A stretch of 64,000 bases of DNA from Desertivirga xinjiangensis (GTDB lineage Bacteria > Bacteroidota > Bacteroidia > Sphingobacteriales > Sphingobacteriaceae), in NCBI RefSeq assembly GCF_024436435.1, contig NZ_JAFMZP010000008.1, positions 1 to 64,000 on the forward strand, written 5' to 3'. The position numbers and the translations under genes were made by a program. Of the stretch, positions 3,161-18,486 are shown piece after piece (position 1 is the first letter of the stretch; each line of letters opens with the position of its first letter). The notes below the pieces were generated by a model. That model searched no databases and had not been told where the DNA came from. It worked only from the letters and a program-made list of their open reading frames with translations.

Positions 3161-3505
3161 CTATTCTTGAAATTTTATGCTATCCTGCATTATCCTAAGC
3201 AATCTCCAATTACCCCTTTCATCTTTTCTAACCTTACAATGGAGATAGATTTTTGCGGTGGAGCCGAGTATGCTAACTCTAAAGTTAGCAGGGTTATCTG
3301 CCTCATTGGGAAGTTCTGTGGCTTTCCAGGTATGAGATCTATACGTGCCTATCTTAGCTAACACATGTTTGTTTCTTTTTAGCAGTTCAACTCCCTGGCT
3401 AAATGACTCAGGTTCATCTTGATCCAAGTATAAGACTCCACCGATTGCCATTACAGCTGAAAATGCGGCTAAAATTATAAGATAAGGCAAAGTCAGTTTT
3501 AACAT
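3161..3505 (-). CDS. Small membrane-anchored protein, unknown
   Basis: This 114-aa protein has one N-terminal hydrophobic segment (residues 5-27, LPYLIILAAFSAVMAIGGVLY). A hydrophilic domain of about 85 residues follows, probably outside the cytoplasm, with a beta-rich end (AKIYLHCKVRKDERGNWRLL). This pattern resembles small Bacteroidota proteins with a cytochrome-c-oxidase-assembly-like exported domain, but I cannot name a family. It is transcribed away from the structured region 3545-4090. Confidence 0.6.
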   Translation of the reverse strand: MLKLTLPYLIILAAFSAVMAIGGVLYLDQDEPESFSQGVELLKRNKHVLAKIGTYRSHTWKATELPNEADNPANFRVSILGSTAKIYLHCKVRKDERGNWRLLRIMQDSIKFQE

Positions 3506-3526: not shown

Positions 3527-3803
3527 AATCTAGGTTAGCTTTTAAACAATCTTCGCGCGAGCCGTCTACGAGTTGAGCGAAGGTCGGAGAAGAGAAGCAC
3601 GCCAGTGCGGTTCTTCGATATCTTTCTATGAAAGACGAGGGTTGGCGGAGTTATTGACTGTGAGAGCCTGAGCATAGCCCTATCAATAACTATGACAACC
3701 CGAAGCCTGAGCGACCGCGTAGGCGAGTAAAATTATGGAAAAGCGGTAGATTTCATAAGGTTGGAGCGTAGCGTAAACTTTATCGAAATCTAGAGTAGCT
3801 TTT
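3527..3803 (+). repeat. Imperfect direct repeats bounding a hairpin block
   Basis: AATCTAGGTTAGCTTTT at 3527-3543 and AATCTAGAGTAGCTTTT at 3787-3803 differ at two positions. They flank the first half of the structured stretch. The right copy is also the 3' arm of a long hairpin (3739-3803). Confidence 0.55.
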
Positions 3804-4090
3804 CATGTAAGATCCCGCTGATTAAAACAGAAAGCATGACAGGTTATCCGGAGGATAATGCAGTTAATGTGTTCGCAGAACTTATTAACGGATTGCAACC
3901 TGGCATATCTTTCTGGAAAATCCCCAGGGATCTGGAATACCGATGGACCTGCGTAGGGCAGTGCGGATGGGGATTGCGGCAGAAGAACCGTAGAATGCAC
4001 CACCCTGGGTTGTAGCAGAAACTTAAGACCAAACCGAGGCTTATCCCTCTCTAAGCCGCAATCAGAGGGTAAGACCGAGCGTTTGGGATT
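3545..4090 (+). ncRNA. Candidate large structured RNA (about 0.55 kb)
   Basis: No convincing gene lies here, but the stretch is packed with stems. CTTCGC 3551-3556 pairs with GCGAAG 3577-3582. A GCAC/GTGC hairpin sits around 3597-3608, and TCTTTC/GAAAGA at 3620-3634. GGGTTG 3639-3644 pairs with CAACCC 3696-3701, enclosing AGTTATTGA/TCAATAACT (3649-3657 with 3683-3691). A long stem runs 3739-3803. TTATCC/GGATAA is at 3844-3858, and GTTAAT/ATTAAC around 3863-3890 with an inner GTTC/GAAC. AATCCCC 3919-3925 pairs with GGGGATT 3969-3975. CCAAAC 4029-4034 pairs with GTTTGG 4081-4086, enclosing CCCTCT/AGAGGG. At several places the pairing needs G-T wobbles that work only in a + strand transcript, so + is the likely strand. 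It matches no RNA family I can name. Confidence 0.5.
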
Positions 4091-4093
4091 AAA

Positions 4094-4828
4094 TTAGCAT
4101 TTGCGCATCATCTTCCACGATAGATAATTTGACAAACCGTCAAGATCTGGGAACAATGTTAACCCATTAATTCCTAACACATCTAACCCTATTAATATCT
4201 CCTTTCGTAAGCTATTAGAGAACTCCAGTTTGAAAAGCCTCTGCTTGTAGGTTTTATTAGTAGTCAGAGGAATAAATTTCGCATTATCTTCAATGAAAGC
4301 GTGGGTTGTGAACCATCCATGTTGAGCTGTAATACGTTTAGTTATATGCCCTGGCTTAAAGACTTTTGTTTGCTTTTGTTGATAAGGAGTTCCCTTGTTT
4401 GTATCAATTATATGGTTCTTGTCAATGCCCAGTAACCAGACTGCTCTTGTCTCCACTTCGATATCTTCCCTAAACGCAAACCATAATGCAACTAGAGGAC
4501 TACTAGACCAATCTAAGAGTCTTGTTGGAAGTCCATGGTGCTGGGCAATAGCTAATGTGTCCCATTGATTACTTAGAATCTCGGTAGAGATATGTGACCG
4601 TCCAAACCTTTTAAACTCTTCCATCAGGGACAACTCCCAATCTGGCAACTCTGCTTCAAGTCCTAGCCTTGCAATTTTTGGTAGCAAATCCCATTTAGCA
4701 TCAAGATGTCCACGGTACAATAAAAAAAGGTCTTCCTCCTCTAAAGCTTTAACCTCATCAGTAATTAGATTAAGAAATTCCTTAAAAGTTGATACTGTGG
4801 TTTTATTTTTAAAACTCATTCGTGACAA
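4094..4828 (-). CDS. FRG domain-containing protein
   Basis: This 244-aa protein carries an FRG domain. The YRG motif is at residues 38-40, and the long conserved segment AQHHGLPTRLLDWS is at 95-108, followed by PLVALWFA. FRG proteins are common in genomic islands and are associated with anti-phage defence in several systems; the biochemical activity is not established in general. It has no signal peptide and no second recognisable domain. It stands alone: upstream is the lipoprotein gene and downstream the structured stretch 3545-4090. The ATG at 4828 is chosen; a second ATG lies three codons in. Confidence 0.85.
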   Translation of the reverse strand: MSRMSFKNKTTVSTFKEFLNLITDEVKALEEEDLFLLYRGHLDAKWDLLPKIARLGLEAELPDWELSLMEEFKRFGRSHISTEILSNQWDTLAIAQHHGLPTRLLDWSSSPLVALWFAFREDIEVETRAVWLLGIDKNHIIDTNKGTPYQQKQTKVFKPGHITKRITAQHGWFTTHAFIEDNAKFIPLTTNKTYKQRLFKLEFSNSLRKEILIGLDVLGINGLTLFPDLDGLSNYLSWKMMRKC

Positions 4829-9593: not shown

Positions 9594-11453
9594 TCAATCA
9601 GTTAGCTTTAAAATCAAGCTAGTTGTATCTATTACTAATCCGTTCTCCTTCTTTCCATCAGAGTTTACTCTCTTCGCTGTTTTAGCTCTAAAGCCTGTTA
9701 CCTCCGAGAATAGCGAAGGTGTTGCCTCTCTTATCCTACCCGTCTTTGGATCTCTAATTTCAAGATCAACAAATAATGTACGAAGTTTTTCCGTTACCTC
9801 TGAGTTAAAATGAAAGTTGTCCGGTCTTCCTTGCTTCTTGTTGAAGATCCGTTTAGCTAGCTTTTGCAGTTTTATGTAGGCATCCTCATTGCTTTTAACT
9901 ATTACCAACTGCTCAATCTTCTTCAGATTCCACTTATGCTCTTCCATTGTTTGCGGATCCAGAAGGTTTGCTGCTTTAAAAGCTAAAGGATTCGTCTTAT
10001 TAATTTGTTGGTCTAATGGTTCTCCGAAGTAGAACCAGCTGCTTCCACCGTGTTCCCTTCTAAATTCTAATATTTCAAGATAATCCTGTTTCAATTTAGT
10101 TGCGCCAGACTTTCTTTCGATTGTCGTTTTACTTTCAAGCTTGAACGGTGAGTATTGTACTTCAACCTCAAAGAATGCTTTCTCCCAATCTTCCTTAATA
10201 AAGTCTATGTGTTTATAGATTTCATTATTAGCTGATTCATTGATTTGTTGATCCAGCTTCATCCGGTTAAGAGTAGCAAGCTTTGTTTCATCCTCTACAT
10301 CAGCAAACTTGTGAAGCATATCATTTCCTTTAAACTTTCCGAATTTGCTCTGTCTAATATGACTATTGTTAGCGTCAATAAGCGTGTTTGCTTCCTTTAG
10401 ATATTCAGTTTTAAACTCTTCAAGAGTAATCTTCACTTTCTCTTTCTCATGATTGGTTATATGCATAAACTGCTCTCCGCTGTTGCGTAAGCGTCCTATA
10501 GCTTGCTTTCCTTTGCTACCTACTCCTATCTTAGTATACGGCTTATAGCGATCTGTAACAAGGATAATTGTAGCCCCTTCATCATATAAATCCCATCCCT
10601 CGAAGTATTTACAGGTATAGAAATTAACCTTCTTATAAATGTCAGTTTTAGGTTCTTCTACAAAGAATTTAGCAAGGTCACCTAACTTTTCAATGTTACT
10701 ATTGTCTTTATCATTTGCGCAGAATATATTGCAATCGGCTATCTCTGATCTTATTACAGCATCGCGTATTGCTGTTACAGAGTTATAGAAGATGTGGATG
10801 TTGCCTTGAGCCTGATCCGTGTTATTTAAGATATAGTTTAATGTGCCATCTACACTTACAGCATTCATCAAAGTAATTTTACCTAACTTCTCTGTAAAAG
10901 TTACTTCATGGAGATCTAACGAATAGAAGCGTTTATCTGAGAAGTAATACGGGGTGGCTGAGATAATTGATTTGTTTTTAAACTCCCAGAAATAGTCGAA
11001 AGGGGCTAATATATCCTTTCTGTATTCCTCTGTGATAAATGTGTGGCACTCGTCTAAAAGGAGAAACCATTCCTGTTTCATTTCTTCCCAACGGTTAACC
11101 GATTTTGCTGCTCTTACAATCTTTCTAGTTGCCTCTGGTGTACACATTATCTTTTCACCTTTACGAAGTTCTTTAACAATATTTACAACCTCTGGACGGC
11201 TGACTCCACCAAATATTATATAGTCGGGTCTTTCATCAGCGTTCTTTGCCATCATCTTACTCTTAAGTATGCTGATGTTGGGAACTACAAGGAGTGTCGT
11301 ACGAGACTTATCTTTGATTTCAAGAGTAGTGCCACCAATTCCACATCTTCCTTTGTTTATAAAAGCGTTTACAGGTAAGCCTTTGGGGAAGATAGAAGAC
11401 AAGTAGGTATTTAAACTTACGTGATGCTTTGTCTTGGATTTGAACATATTCAT
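9594..11453 (-). CDS. SF2 helicase-like protein with atypical P-loop
   Basis: This 619-aa protein has the core of a superfamily 2 helicase. A P-loop-like segment (KGRCGIGGTT, residues 34-43) lacks the classic GKT/S, the DECH box is at 134-137, motif III SATP at 165-168, and a motif VI-like QAIGRLR at 317-323. The C-terminal 300 residues carry no motif I know. Proteins of this kind occur on Bacteroidota plasmids and islands and may act in replication of the excised element or in DNA processing. Because the Walker A Lys is not in its usual context (GIGGTT), ATP use cannot be taken for granted. The gene starts just after a terminator-like hairpin (11465-11481). Confidence 0.7.
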   Translation of the reverse strand: MNMFKSKTKHHVSLNTYLSSIFPKGLPVNAFINKGRCGIGGTTLEIKDKSRTTLLVVPNISILKSKMMAKNADERPDYIIFGGVSRPEVVNIVKELRKGEKIMCTPEATRKIVRAAKSVNRWEEMKQEWFLLLDECHTFITEEYRKDILAPFDYFWEFKNKSIISATPYYFSDKRFYSLDLHEVTFTEKLGKITLMNAVSVDGTLNYILNNTDQAQGNIHIFYNSVTAIRDAVIRSEIADCNIFCANDKDNSNIEKLGDLAKFFVEEPKTDIYKKVNFYTCKYFEGWDLYDEGATIILVTDRYKPYTKIGVGSKGKQAIGRLRNSGEQFMHITNHEKEKVKITLEEFKTEYLKEANTLIDANNSHIRQSKFGKFKGNDMLHKFADVEDETKLATLNRMKLDQQINESANNEIYKHIDFIKEDWEKAFFEVEVQYSPFKLESKTTIERKSGATKLKQDYLEILEFRREHGGSSWFYFGEPLDQQINKTNPLAFKAANLLDPQTMEEHKWNLKKIEQLVIVKSNEDAYIKLQKLAKRIFNKKQGRPDNFHFNSEVTEKLRTLFVDLEIRDPKTGRIREATPSLFSEVTGFRAKTAKRVNSDGKKENGLVIDTTSLILKLTD

Positions 11454-12890: not shown

Positions 12891-14084
12891 CTAGATGAAA
12901 TCTATATCATCCCTGGTCTTTCGGATGTATTTCACTTCTGGTACTTGCTCTATAAGTTGTCTTGCGTAAGTTTCTGTCTGTGAAATCTTACTATGACCGT
13001 TCTTGTACATTAGTTCGATAAGGTCAGCGCCGTTGATAAGTAGATTCACGTTTCCTGTATGCTTAAAGCTATATAGGGTCTTATTCTCATCAATAGTCAG
13101 TTCAGACTTTAGTTTCTGAAACCTTGATCCTATCGTGCTGGTAGCAAGTGGAAGCTTGGCAACGAACTTACTCTTTTGAAAGCGTGCATCTGTACCGATA
13201 AAGAAAAGGTCTCCGATACTTTGGTCATTGTAGTTAATTGGTAATTTCAAAAGGTACTGCTTCAATGGTTCATCTAACAGAACCGTTTTGGACTTATTTT
13301 TAACCTTACCCTTTCCTTTCGGTAAGACTATCTTATTCTCATTCAGTCGTATATCTCGTATTTGGATTTTTAATATCTCTGAGATCCGAACTTGAGCCCC
13401 ATAGATCAGGTATATAATTGTTTTTAAGATTAGATCGTTACGATCGTCGCAGTACCCGATAATATTCCTAATGTCATCCTTAGAATGTATCCGGTGTCGT
13501 TCTACCGGGAGATTGTTTGGTATCTTAATTCCTAAAGTCGGGTTTTGGATGGGTAAGTTCCTCTCTTCGATTAACCAGTTGAAGAATACGGACAGGTAGG
13601 TTTTGTAACTACGCTTTGATTGTGGTTTGACTTTTATTTCCTTTAGAAAGATCTTTATAAACCCTTGATCAATTTCAAACAGACTATGTGTAGATGCCTG
13701 TTCCTTAAAAACTTTAAAGATAGTGCAGTAATTAGCGTACGTGTGGTACACGACACGTGTTTTGACTTCTGACAAGTACTCATCTATCAAATCAGATAGA
13801 GAGGCATCCTCTAAAGGTGCCTTCTTAAAGATATTGTTTGCTTGGTCGAACGCTTTTGTACGCAGTAAGTGATCAAGCTCATTCAACACTTTCGCAGCTT
13901 TCTTCTGCCTGGTTGCAATGGTATCTTCTTTATCATTCAACCCTGATGATATTTTGTATTGTTTTCTTGTTCCTTTATAGATGTAACTGAAGTAAACAAA
14001 CCATCGGTCTGTTAATCGCTTACCAGATATTAAAGGCTTGTTACATGTTAGGTTTAGTGGGTAGTCATAATTTACTTTCGCCAT
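12891..14084 (-). CDS. Tyrosine recombinase (island integrase)
   Basis: This 397-aa protein has the usual order of a Bacteroidota phage-type integrase: an N-terminal arm-binding part, a SAM-like core-binding domain (about residues 95-190) and the catalytic domain. Catalytic residues seen are Arg233 (AQVRISEI), His342 in SFKHTGN (Lys341 replaces the usual Arg of RHT, as in many integrases of this phylum), His364 (NGHSK) and the nucleophile Tyr373 (TETYA). It should catalyse excision and integration at the 80-bp att repeats. It lies next to the right end, transcribed into the island. Confidence 0.92.
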   Translation of the reverse strand: MAKVNYDYPLNLTCNKPLISGKRLTDRWFVYFSYIYKGTRKQYKISSGLNDKEDTIATRQKKAAKVLNELDHLLRTKAFDQANNIFKKAPLEDASLSDLIDEYLSEVKTRVVYHTYANYCTIFKVFKEQASTHSLFEIDQGFIKIFLKEIKVKPQSKRSYKTYLSVFFNWLIEERNLPIQNPTLGIKIPNNLPVERHRIHSKDDIRNIIGYCDDRNDLILKTIIYLIYGAQVRISEILKIQIRDIRLNENKIVLPKGKGKVKNKSKTVLLDEPLKQYLLKLPINYNDQSIGDLFFIGTDARFQKSKFVAKLPLATSTIGSRFQKLKSELTIDENKTLYSFKHTGNVNLLINGADLIELMYKNGHSKISQTETYARQLIEQVPEVKYIRKTRDDIDFI

Positions 14085-14251: not shown

Positions 14252-14277
14252 AAAAAAGCAGGTGATGGGCACCTGCT
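14252..14277 (-). terminator. Terminator of the tRNA-like gene
   Basis: On the minus strand a perfect 7-bp stem (GCAGGTG with CACCTGC, 5-nt loop) is followed by six T. A second copy at 195-220 was made by island insertion. Confidence 0.8.
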
Positions 14278-14331
14278 CAAACTAACCAATTATAAACCTA
14301 AATTAAACGAAAGGAGCTGTAGGGGAAGGAA
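14252..14331. repeat. Right attachment repeat (80 bp)
   Basis: It is identical to 195-274. The inner end carries the terminator hairpin of the tRNA-like gene (minus strand GCAGGTG-cccat-CACCTGC then TTTTTT). The outer end covers the acceptor and part of the T stem of the tRNA (14318-14331), so integration keeps the gene intact. Confidence 0.93.
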
Positions 14332-16275: not shown

Positions 16276-18486
16276 TTAAGCCTGCCTTGTGTTGTGTGTG
16301 AAGGGCAGGGTGAAATGGAAGGTTGAACCTTTTCCTGTCTGGCTTTCCACCCACATCTTTCCTTTGTGACGAAGAACTATCTCATTAGAAATGTACAAGC
16401 CTATGCCCAATCCTGATATGCTCGAAGGCAGATCATTAGATCTGAAAAACCTCGAAAATATCTGTCCCATTTGATCCTCGGGAATGCCAAGGCCGAAATC
16501 CTGGATACTTACGGTGACGGCATCATCAGAAGCTGCCATGTTTACCAGCACCTCATTGGCATGTGGAGAGTATTTTATCGCATTGGTCAGGAGATTTATC
16601 AACACCTGCTCTATTCTCTGACGGTCGCCTGTAATCTCAGTTGCTGTCTTGCTCTGGATTTTTATCGTATGCGTTTTTGATGTTGGCTGAACACTATCAA
16701 CGGTTTCTTCAATCAATTCGGCCATGTTAAAAGGCTTGGTGTTAAGCTGTAATTTCCCCGCTTGAATTTTTGAAATATCCAGGAGATCGGCAACCAGTGA
16801 GTTGAGTTTGCTGGCGTGTTTTAACGTTTTTGCGACAAAGCTCTTATGCTGCAGGTCGCTCAATTTACGGTCAAGCAATTGTAAATTGGCATAAATACTG
16901 GTTAATGGTGTTTTCAGCTCGTGGCTGGCTATACCAATAAATTCGTCTTTGTAATTATTTAGTTTTTCTAATTGTTCTGTGGACCTTTTTAATTGTCTTA
17001 GGATCTCGTTTTGTTGGGTGATATCGCGGGCGATCTTGGATGCACCTACAATGTTTCCTTTCTTATCTTTTACTGGCGATACAGATAAAGATAACTCAAT
17101 TTCCTTTCTGTCTTTGGTAATCCGTGTGGTTTTGAAATGATCTACTCGTTCGCCCTTTCTTATTTTACCGATAATTATCTTTTCCTCGTCCAGCAAAGCT
17201 TCAGGTATCAGCATGGTGATCGGCTGTCCAATGGCTTCGCTTTCGGTATAGCCAAATATTCGTTCGGCACCTTTATTCCAGCTAGTGATTATACCATCCA
17301 GGTTTTTACTGATAATGGCGTCGTCAGAAGAATCTACGATAGCAGCTAGAGTCGCCTGCTTGTGCTCGAGGATACGTTGTTCCGTGATGTTCCTGGCGAT
17401 CTTGGAACAGCCGATGATTTCTCCACGGTGATTTTTTATAGGAGATATAGAAAGCGAAAGGATCAGTTCTGTTCCATCTTTCCGGCGTCTTCTGGTTTCA
17501 AAATGATCCAGCTTCTGGCCGGCTTTAATTTGGTCGATTATGATCTGCTCTTCTCCGCGACGTGACTCAGGAATAATGGTGCTGATATGTTTTCCGATGA
17601 TCTCCCTCTCGGTATAGCCAAATATCCTTTCGGCCCCCTTGTTCCAGCTGGAGATGATGCCGTCCAGGTTTTTGCTGATGATGGCGTCCTCTGATGAATC
17701 CACAATAGACGCAAGGATTGCCTGCTTGATGTCAGAACTATACTGCTGCGAGATGTCCCGGGCTATTTTTGACGCGCCGATAATCTCCCCTTTGGCATTT
17801 TTTATAGGTGAAACGGTTAAAGAAACCATCAATTCCTTTCCGTCTTTGCTTAGTCTTATGGTTTCGAAATGTTCTACTTTTTCGCCTGCTTTAATCCTTT
17901 CCAGGATCATCAATTCTTCTGCCAGTCGCGACGGAGGGATCAAAACCGTGATCGATTTATTTAATATTTCAGCTTCGTTGTATCCGAATATGGTTTCAGC
18001 TCCTTTATTCCAGCTGGTAATGAAACCGTCGAGGGTTTTGCTGATAATGGCATCATCAGAGGAGTCTACTATAGCGGCGAGCATCCCCTGTTTATCTTCA
18101 AGCACTCTTTTCCAGGTAATATCCTGAAGCACTTCGCTAATCCCTGCAATTTCTCCCTCATCGTTCAGAACCGGTAAGAGCGATAAGATGATATGCAGCC
18201 TGTTGCCAAATTTGTCAAGACGTTCAGTATAGTAGCTGTTTATAGAAATGCCGCTTTTTATCAGCTTGGTGATCTGCTGCTCTTCCGCGCGTTTCTCATC
18301 CGGGATTATTAAAGATATATTTTTGCCGCTTACTTCTGCGTGTGAATAACCGAACAGCTGTTCTGCATTGGCATCCCAACTTGTAATAATATCATTTAAG
18401 TCCTTCGTGATGACAGCATCACAGGTTGAATTAACAAAGGACGTTGATGATAGATATGAGATATCCCCAGATTTAGTCTTTTCCAT
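16276..18486 (-). CDS. Multi-PAS sensor histidine kinase
   Basis: A 736-aa (from ATG 18486) soluble hybrid-free kinase: four PAS/PAC units in tandem, each about 122 aa (W-N-GAE-IFGY and SP-K---G-I-G-SKIARDI), then a HisKA domain with HELKTPL (His532 counted from the longer start, 522 here) and a HATPase domain with N box (NLLTNAIKYS), QDFGLGI and GLGIGLYIS. No membrane segment, so it senses a cytoplasmic signal. A longer frame starts at 18516, but the ATG at 18486 fits better. PAS units 2 to 4 are alike even in DNA. The partner regulator is not in the window. Confidence 0.9.
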   Translation of the reverse strand: MEKTKSGDISYLSSTSFVNSTCDAVITKDLNDIITSWDANAEQLFGYSHAEVSGKNISLIIPDEKRAEEQQITKLIKSGISINSYYTERLDKFGNRLHIILSLLPVLNDEGEIAGISEVLQDITWKRVLEDKQGMLAAIVDSSDDAIISKTLDGFITSWNKGAETIFGYNEAEILNKSITVLIPPSRLAEELMILERIKAGEKVEHFETIRLSKDGKELMVSLTVSPIKNAKGEIIGASKIARDISQQYSSDIKQAILASIVDSSEDAIISKNLDGIISSWNKGAERIFGYTEREIIGKHISTIIPESRRGEEQIIIDQIKAGQKLDHFETRRRRKDGTELILSLSISPIKNHRGEIIGCSKIARNITEQRILEHKQATLAAIVDSSDDAIISKNLDGIITSWNKGAERIFGYTESEAIGQPITMLIPEALLDEEKIIIGKIRKGERVDHFKTTRITKDRKEIELSLSVSPVKDKKGNIVGASKIARDITQQNEILRQLKRSTEQLEKLNNYKDEFIGIASHELKTPLTSIYANLQLLDRKLSDLQHKSFVAKTLKHASKLNSLVADLLDISKIQAGKLQLNTKPFNMAELIEETVDSVQPTSKTHTIKIQSKTATEITGDRQRIEQVLINLLTNAIKYSPHANEVLVNMAASDDAVTVSIQDFGLGIPEDQMGQIFSRFFRSNDLPSSISGLGIGLYISNEIVLRHKGKMWVESQTGKGSTFHFTLPFTHNTRQA
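16990..18090 (-). repeat. Tandem 366-bp PAS repeats inside the kinase gene
   Basis: Closely similar DNA segments start near 17277, 17642 and 18008, about 365-366 bp apart (one PAS/PAC unit of 122 codons). The similarity indicates in-gene duplication rather than old divergence. Confidence 0.75.

Follow-up and report, generated by a model that had tools for sequence, protein, structure and literature searches.

A large structured RNA element of tyrosine-integrase islands in Sphingobacteriaceae, flanked by changing, mostly defence-like genes

The first 64,000 nucleotides of contig NZ_JAFMZP010000008.1 of Desertivirga xinjiangensis (Sphingobacteriaceae; assembly GCF_024436435.1), referred to below as the window, contain a mobile island with a gene-free stretch between a small membrane gene and a gene for an FRG-domain protein. 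Inspection of the letters alone (the sequence-only reading) had placed a large structured RNA candidate in this stretch, at 3545-4090. We found that positions 3553-4092 of the + strand form a real, conserved, and strand-specific structured RNA element, composed as follows.

3553-4092, + strand: structured RNA element of about 540 nt, in its long form (homology limits from pairwise locus comparisons; covariance model match of 130 bits; covariation)
3551-3582, + strand: 5' terminal hairpin, CTTCGC/GCGAAG, with the conserved GCGA.CCG...GCGAG motif (fold; motif in 50 of 51 loci)
3583-3619, + strand: hairpin P-b, 9 bp, an asymmetric internal loop, and 4 bp (compensatory changes in 13 of 13 pairs, 80 sequences)
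3639-3701, + strand: hairpin P-d, conserved internal loop UGGCG/UGACA (compensatory changes in 13 of 15 pairs and 96.7% of cells paired, 80 sequences)
3705-3724, + strand: hairpin P-e, GCCTG/TAGGC, with a conserved GCGAGY behind it (85% of cells paired; the weakest among the tested helices)
3738-3804, + strand: hairpin P-f, nested, GAAAAGC/GCTTTTC (folds and alignments; less formally tested)
3837-3905, + strand: helix of the 3' domain with the second UGACA/UGGC internal loop, GACAGGTT ... CAACCTGGC (the inner helix varies in sequence and still pairs in most homologues)
4026-4092, + strand: 3' terminal hairpin, loop UAAGCMRC (25 long-form sequences), abutting the stop codon of the FRG gene

Homology shifts the limits first proposed to about 3553-4092. 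Pairwise locus comparisons placed the start of homology about 27 nt ahead of the start of the covariance model, and the flanks of the element were usually unrelated between the loci compared. In the long form, which includes the copy in the window, similarity ended at about +490 to +560; in the Sphingobacterium form it ended at +357, giving a unit of about 385 nt. Solitalea has a unit of approximately 530 nt; in Fluviicola/Crocinitomicaceae, the repeated unit spans approximately 900 nt. The latter size was seen at L101 and L145 (Fluviicola metagenome-assembled genome) and at L146; of two copies within a single genome, one carries an insertion of approximately 140 nt. At 3527 and 3787, the 17-nt direct repeats that had been taken to bound the first half of the element do exist; they look incidental as a boundary, because the sequence upstream of the element is not conserved.

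The hairpins described earlier in this stretch are present, and the fold energy of 3545-4090 was better than that of all 100 dinucleotide shuffles, with z values of -4.87 for the + strand and -4.60 for the - strand. Since both strands fold well, the energy by itself is no proof of an RNA and does not pick a strand. No open reading frame (ORF) spanning the stretch was found, a conserved ORF having been named beforehand as evidence against an RNA, and the insertions and deletions among homologues did not come in threes. The hairpin reported at 4029-4086 was kept in the 25 long-form sequences as a terminal hairpin of about 20 bp with the same loop, UAAGCMRC, on differing stems. It was assessed by single folds, pair counts on a MAFFT alignment being spoiled by shifting bulges; the enclosed-pair counts exclude G327, G264, G276, and G035, in which an earlier TAAAC was taken as the loop, and the drawn hairpins were used. 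The nested hairpin at 3739-3803 (arms AAAAGC/GCTTTT) was likewise kept in homologues; an automatic helix search chose wrong partners in many loci, and P-f is therefore counted as less tested.

Covariation was analysed in two alignments. In an alignment of 12 homologues of 3580-3728, built by sequence alone and not fitted to a model, 91.4% of the cells paired with the given structure and 17 of the 33 pairs displayed compensatory changes, with a covariation of 0.510 versus 0.209 ± 0.020 after shuffling and at most 0.155 in slid registers. Covariance model R2 collected 80 distinct sequences, and in the resulting alignment of the 5' domain, which is model-fitted, 94.6% of the cells were paired, compensatory changes occurred in 28 of the 33 pairs, and covariation reached 0.565 versus 0.177 after shuffling and at most 0.109 in slid registers. 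Double changes numbered 529 in the 80 sequences, against 145 ± 10 in shuffled data. The hairpin at 3639-3701, singled out by the sequence-only reading, covaried strongly, and the UGACA/UGGC internal loop was built twice, the copy in the 3' domain having a covarying stem of its own; a third covarying hairpin is the one at the 3' end. A lack of covariation in homologues, named beforehand as evidence against an RNA, was thus not observed. These covariation statistics and the conservation across families leave practically no room for chance hairpins without function. In the conserved helices of the 12 homologues, G-T occupied 40 cells versus 8 for A-C, and one G-U pair was held in 75 of the 80 sequences (A-U in 4 of 80). 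This excess of G-T over A-C and the retained G-U pair indicate that the + strand is the folded strand, as had been argued from the wobble pairs of the window.

BLASTN searches of 150 related genomes gave matches in 14, with approximately 70 to 78% identity over longer stretches; one of the matches is a second copy in the genome of the window. In the window's family, 134 of 401 genomes (about a third) had R2 matches; a phylum-wide sample of 395 genomes gave 7, all but one of these within the same family. The copy number per genome reached 8. A 24-base motif of the element was found at 60 loci of the named genome collection, 43 of which were also R2 matches. These motif loci belong to Sphingobacterium, Parapedobacter, Solitalea, Crocinitomicaceae/Fluviicola, Cyclobacteriaceae, and other Bacteroidota; the sole record labelled Firmicutes has the same size (8,232) as contig C4 of G167, a genome of the window's family. 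The genome of the window carries a second RNA copy near a contig end (G000:C23:2051-2614; L009/L095), which adjoins a radC region 86% identical to that of the window and marks a second island of the same family. The 24-base motif had no match in 2.9 million viral contigs (IMG/VR), and BLASTN of the window's copy against plasmids returned none. Absence of a known RNA family, as surmised earlier, was corroborated by Rfam 15, which gave no match at the gathering threshold, none at E = 10 in the window region, and none at E = 0.5 in 12 homologue loci. A DUF805b match, below its cutoff, was detected beside one homologue in a relaxed Rfam scan. The literature on noncoding RNAs, islands, and satellites of Bacteroidota, in a coverage that omits most subscription journals, contained nothing found on the element, which we describe as a large RNA element of mobile DNA islands without an earlier name.

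The predicted link to mobile DNA also held, the element belonging to a family of tyrosine-integrase islands. In the window, the island has the following features.

195-274, no strand: left 80-bp perfect direct repeat, putative attachment (att) site, bounding the island
422-883, - strand: RadC/JAB gene (Pfam RadC, 2.3e-39; 20 of 51 loci have a homologue close to the RNA)
3161-3505, - strand: small divergent membrane gene, directly adjoining the 5' end of the RNA (no Pfam match)
4094-4828, - strand: gene of an FRG-domain protein, cargo directly adjoining the 3' end of the RNA, candidate defence gene PDC-S15 (Pfam FRG, 3.8e-25; PADLOC PDC-S15, 2.6e-77)
9594-11453, - strand: backbone protein of superfamily 2 (SF2) helicase fold, 619 aa (motifs KGRCGIGxT, DECH, and SAT; co-located with the RNA)
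12891-14084, - strand: tyrosine integrase (Pfam Phage_integrase, 3.4e-15; PHROG integrase, 4.6e-40)
14252-14331, no strand: right 80-bp perfect direct repeat, bounding the island

The 80-bp repeats are probably the att duplication made by the tyrosine integrase, the gene of which lies 9 kb from the element, at the opposite end of the island. The SF2-helicase-like protein was modelled by AlphaFold with a mean predicted local distance difference test score (pLDDT) of 87 and gave Foldseek matches to RecQ and DEAD-box helicases; a sequence search of the PDB returned no match. In 251 genomes of the family, 58 loci of this protein were present. The RNA lay at most 15 kb from the protein gene in 43 of them (median, 5.3 kb), against about 1% per locus expected for co-location by chance, and 42 of the 43 RNA/helicase pairs were convergent.

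The genes abutting the element vary from island to island, and those scanned were mostly defence-like. They included SIR2/ThsA-like, GmrSD/NsnA-like, RelA/SpoT (PDC-S33), DNA methyltransferase, PDC-M02A, AbiLi, PDC-S28, OLD/Gabija-like, TIR, Schlafen, NACHT, and putAbiC proteins, and HipA and RloB were located between two copies of the element in one island. In G015, the RNA adjoins a CRISPR-Cas operon, possibly cargo of the island, in which Pfam recognised Cas6 and Cas7 (L184, 10697-10841 and 12511-16003). The orientation of the element relative to the backbone is fixed, whereas the flanking cargo varies and occurs in either orientation. The statement that the element lies antisense to all nearby genes applies to the window and does not generalise: the next downstream gene was in the sense orientation in 27 of 51 loci and in the opposite orientation in 24.

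Where cargo changes, homology breaks exactly at the ends of the element. In G038, G251, and G365, the element is 93 to 96% identical, the radC flank is nearly identical, and a border hairpin before radC is common to all, with three unrelated cargoes between the RNA 3' end and this hairpin. The border hairpin, ATCACCCTCAC...GTGAGTGGTGAT or ATCCCACTCAC...GTGAGTGGGAT, forms the far cargo border in Sphingobacterium islands, at 2991, 2260, and 804 from the RNA start in L063, L058, and L013, respectively, and also in L060, L061, and L064. Copies of the 3' end of the element were found downstream of cargo (G041, G035, G208, G324, G276, G410, and G236) and copies of the 5' end upstream (G208, G343, G414, G169, and G185), always in the orientation of the element and on the expected side, in about a dozen of the 51 loci. 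No such copy was found beyond FRG in the window.

In kind, the element is a large ornate noncoding RNA, with extensive covarying structure and no ORF. Very few RNAs of this kind are known from bacteria, and what they do is poorly understood. OLE RNA, for which protein partners are known and which is not known from mobile islands, is likewise long and ornate; the element differs in having no Rfam match. RNAs encoded by integrating phage satellites that also carry defence genes, such as P4 CI RNA and the PLE transcript, have no sequence or Rfam relation to the element, and the islands are only putatively satellite-like. The sequence-only reading had been reminded of GOLLD and ROOL, which display large, elaborate covarying structures in gene-free, mobile-DNA-linked regions and whose function is unknown (PMC12286853). 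The element is also large, ornate, covarying, gene-free, and tied to mobile DNA, but it matches neither Rfam model, resides in integrative islands of Sphingobacteriaceae rather than in phages, and has exchangeable defence genes, not tRNA arrays, as neighbours (no tRNA was found in the window). The resemblance therefore stands as an analogy and not as family membership: the element may work like the GOLLD/ROOL group without being part of it. The omega RNA of HEARO/IscB is also a structured RNA of several hundred nucleotides that borders a mobile unit and often precedes an ORF; the element differs by the absence of a HEARO match in Rfam and of a constant IscB-type or downstream HNH nuclease ORF, its neighbours being unrelated defence genes in either orientation. 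A group I or group II intron is disfavoured, there being no catalytic core according to Rfam and no intron-encoded protein among the scanned island proteins.

We favour, with a probability of roughly 55%, the interpretation that the element is a + strand gene for a large noncoding structured RNA that belongs to the island backbone and acts in trans, and that its locus doubles as a docking point for defence cargo. We infer that the element is transcribed from the + strand as a large noncoding RNA and that this RNA functions as a scaffold in trans, by itself as in the case of the ornate phage RNAs or complexed with the SF2-helicase-like protein of the island. It would serve a step needed for the upkeep or transfer of the island. 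Its ends would have been turned into exchange junctions for defence genes, as suggested by the conservation of the element while its neighbours turn over. Several observations weigh against this interpretation. No promoter was found at a fixed upstream distance, the Bacteroidota promoter TAnnTTTG showing no peak, and both a sigma-70-like promoter on the + strand ahead of the element and an intrinsic terminator were absent. About a quarter of the helicase loci have no detected RNA, the RNA of Flavobacteriales and Cyclobacteriaceae is accompanied by other backbone genes, and the protein partner of the RNA is a guess. A cis-acting leader, i.e., a long structured 5' region controlling the defence gene behind it, would account for the Sphingobacterium group, where every island examined has its first downstream gene in sense, mostly starting no more than about 120 nt beyond the end of the RNA. 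We regard such a leader as improbable, since its role does not fit the mixed orientation of the neighbours, opposite in the window and in the 24 loci mentioned above, and an identical RNA type precedes unrelated genes. Fixed orientation to the backbone combined with variable cargo fits a backbone component better than the leader of one gene.

The sharp breaks in homology at the ends of the element while cargo switches, the three islands with unrelated cargoes between nearly identical RNAs and one border hairpin, the end copies beyond cargo in the expected orientation and side, and the failure to find a conserved promoter would all be accommodated by a cassette-exchange platform made of folded DNA or RNA. 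The ends of the element would then be recombination sites, somewhat like integron attI/attC, and circular defence cassettes would be inserted on either side. This alternative is rather unlikely in our view: end remnants are confined to about a dozen of the 51 loci and could also come from homologous recombination between RNA copies, the internal domains far exceed the needs of a recombination site and covary throughout, and no integron-type integrase was identified beside the element (IntI features were not examined), the island integrase apparently acting on the 80-bp att repeats. Hairpin-forming ends at the junctions of exchangeable cassettes and end copies beyond cargo are shared with attI/attC, but the element is several times the length of attC, its interior is ornate, the orientation of its cargo is not fixed, and the recombination site that follows every cassette of an integron array has a counterpart in only the above minority of loci. 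It is doubtful that the element forms the core of a Bacteroidota cassette-exchange system, in which the ends of a large folded RNA or single-stranded DNA would take up and release anti-phage cassettes on either side, the helicase of the island exposing the folded strand. Highly improbable is a remnant or nonautonomous form of a mobile ribozyme or guide-RNA element (group I/II intron, HEARO/omega RNA, or IS110 bridge RNA). The sharp ends, unrelated flanks, and several copies per genome are compatible with such an origin, but the Rfam searches of the window region and of the 12 homologue loci remained negative at the relaxed thresholds given above, and there is no constant partner ORF, IS110 transposases having been seen beside the element in only two loci. 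Neither a reverse transcriptase nor a homing nuclease was found among the scanned island proteins. In two Pedobacter-like genomes, IS110-family transposase genes immediately follow the 3' end of the RNA (L065, 6596-7744; L024, 1713-2831).

The element occurs commonly in cultured Sphingobacteriaceae, is amenable to deletion in laboratory strains, keeps a fixed neighbouring protein, and marks sites of defence-gene exchange. It provides a handle on two questions, the roles of large ornate RNAs and the swapping of cargo in defence islands, and its motif can be used to locate defence genes that are exchangeable and in part unknown.

In Flavobacteriales, Cyclobacteriaceae, and Solitalea, the RNA was found near a 250-aa protein (MARQ...FYK...RTREN), small membrane proteins, and sometimes DUF5675 (L155, L132, L136, L146, L153, L105, L114, and L126). 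The 250-aa protein matched no Pfam or PHROG family, and its group represents another undescribed element backbone. In the island of the window, the gene at 1111-2391 may be a further defence gene, its product weakly matching DUF7947 and PADLOC PD-T4-10_B. Elsewhere in the window, three tandem 162-nt repeats, 366 nt apart, lie at 17201-18094 within a sensor kinase gene, where they correspond to repeated PAS-like domains.
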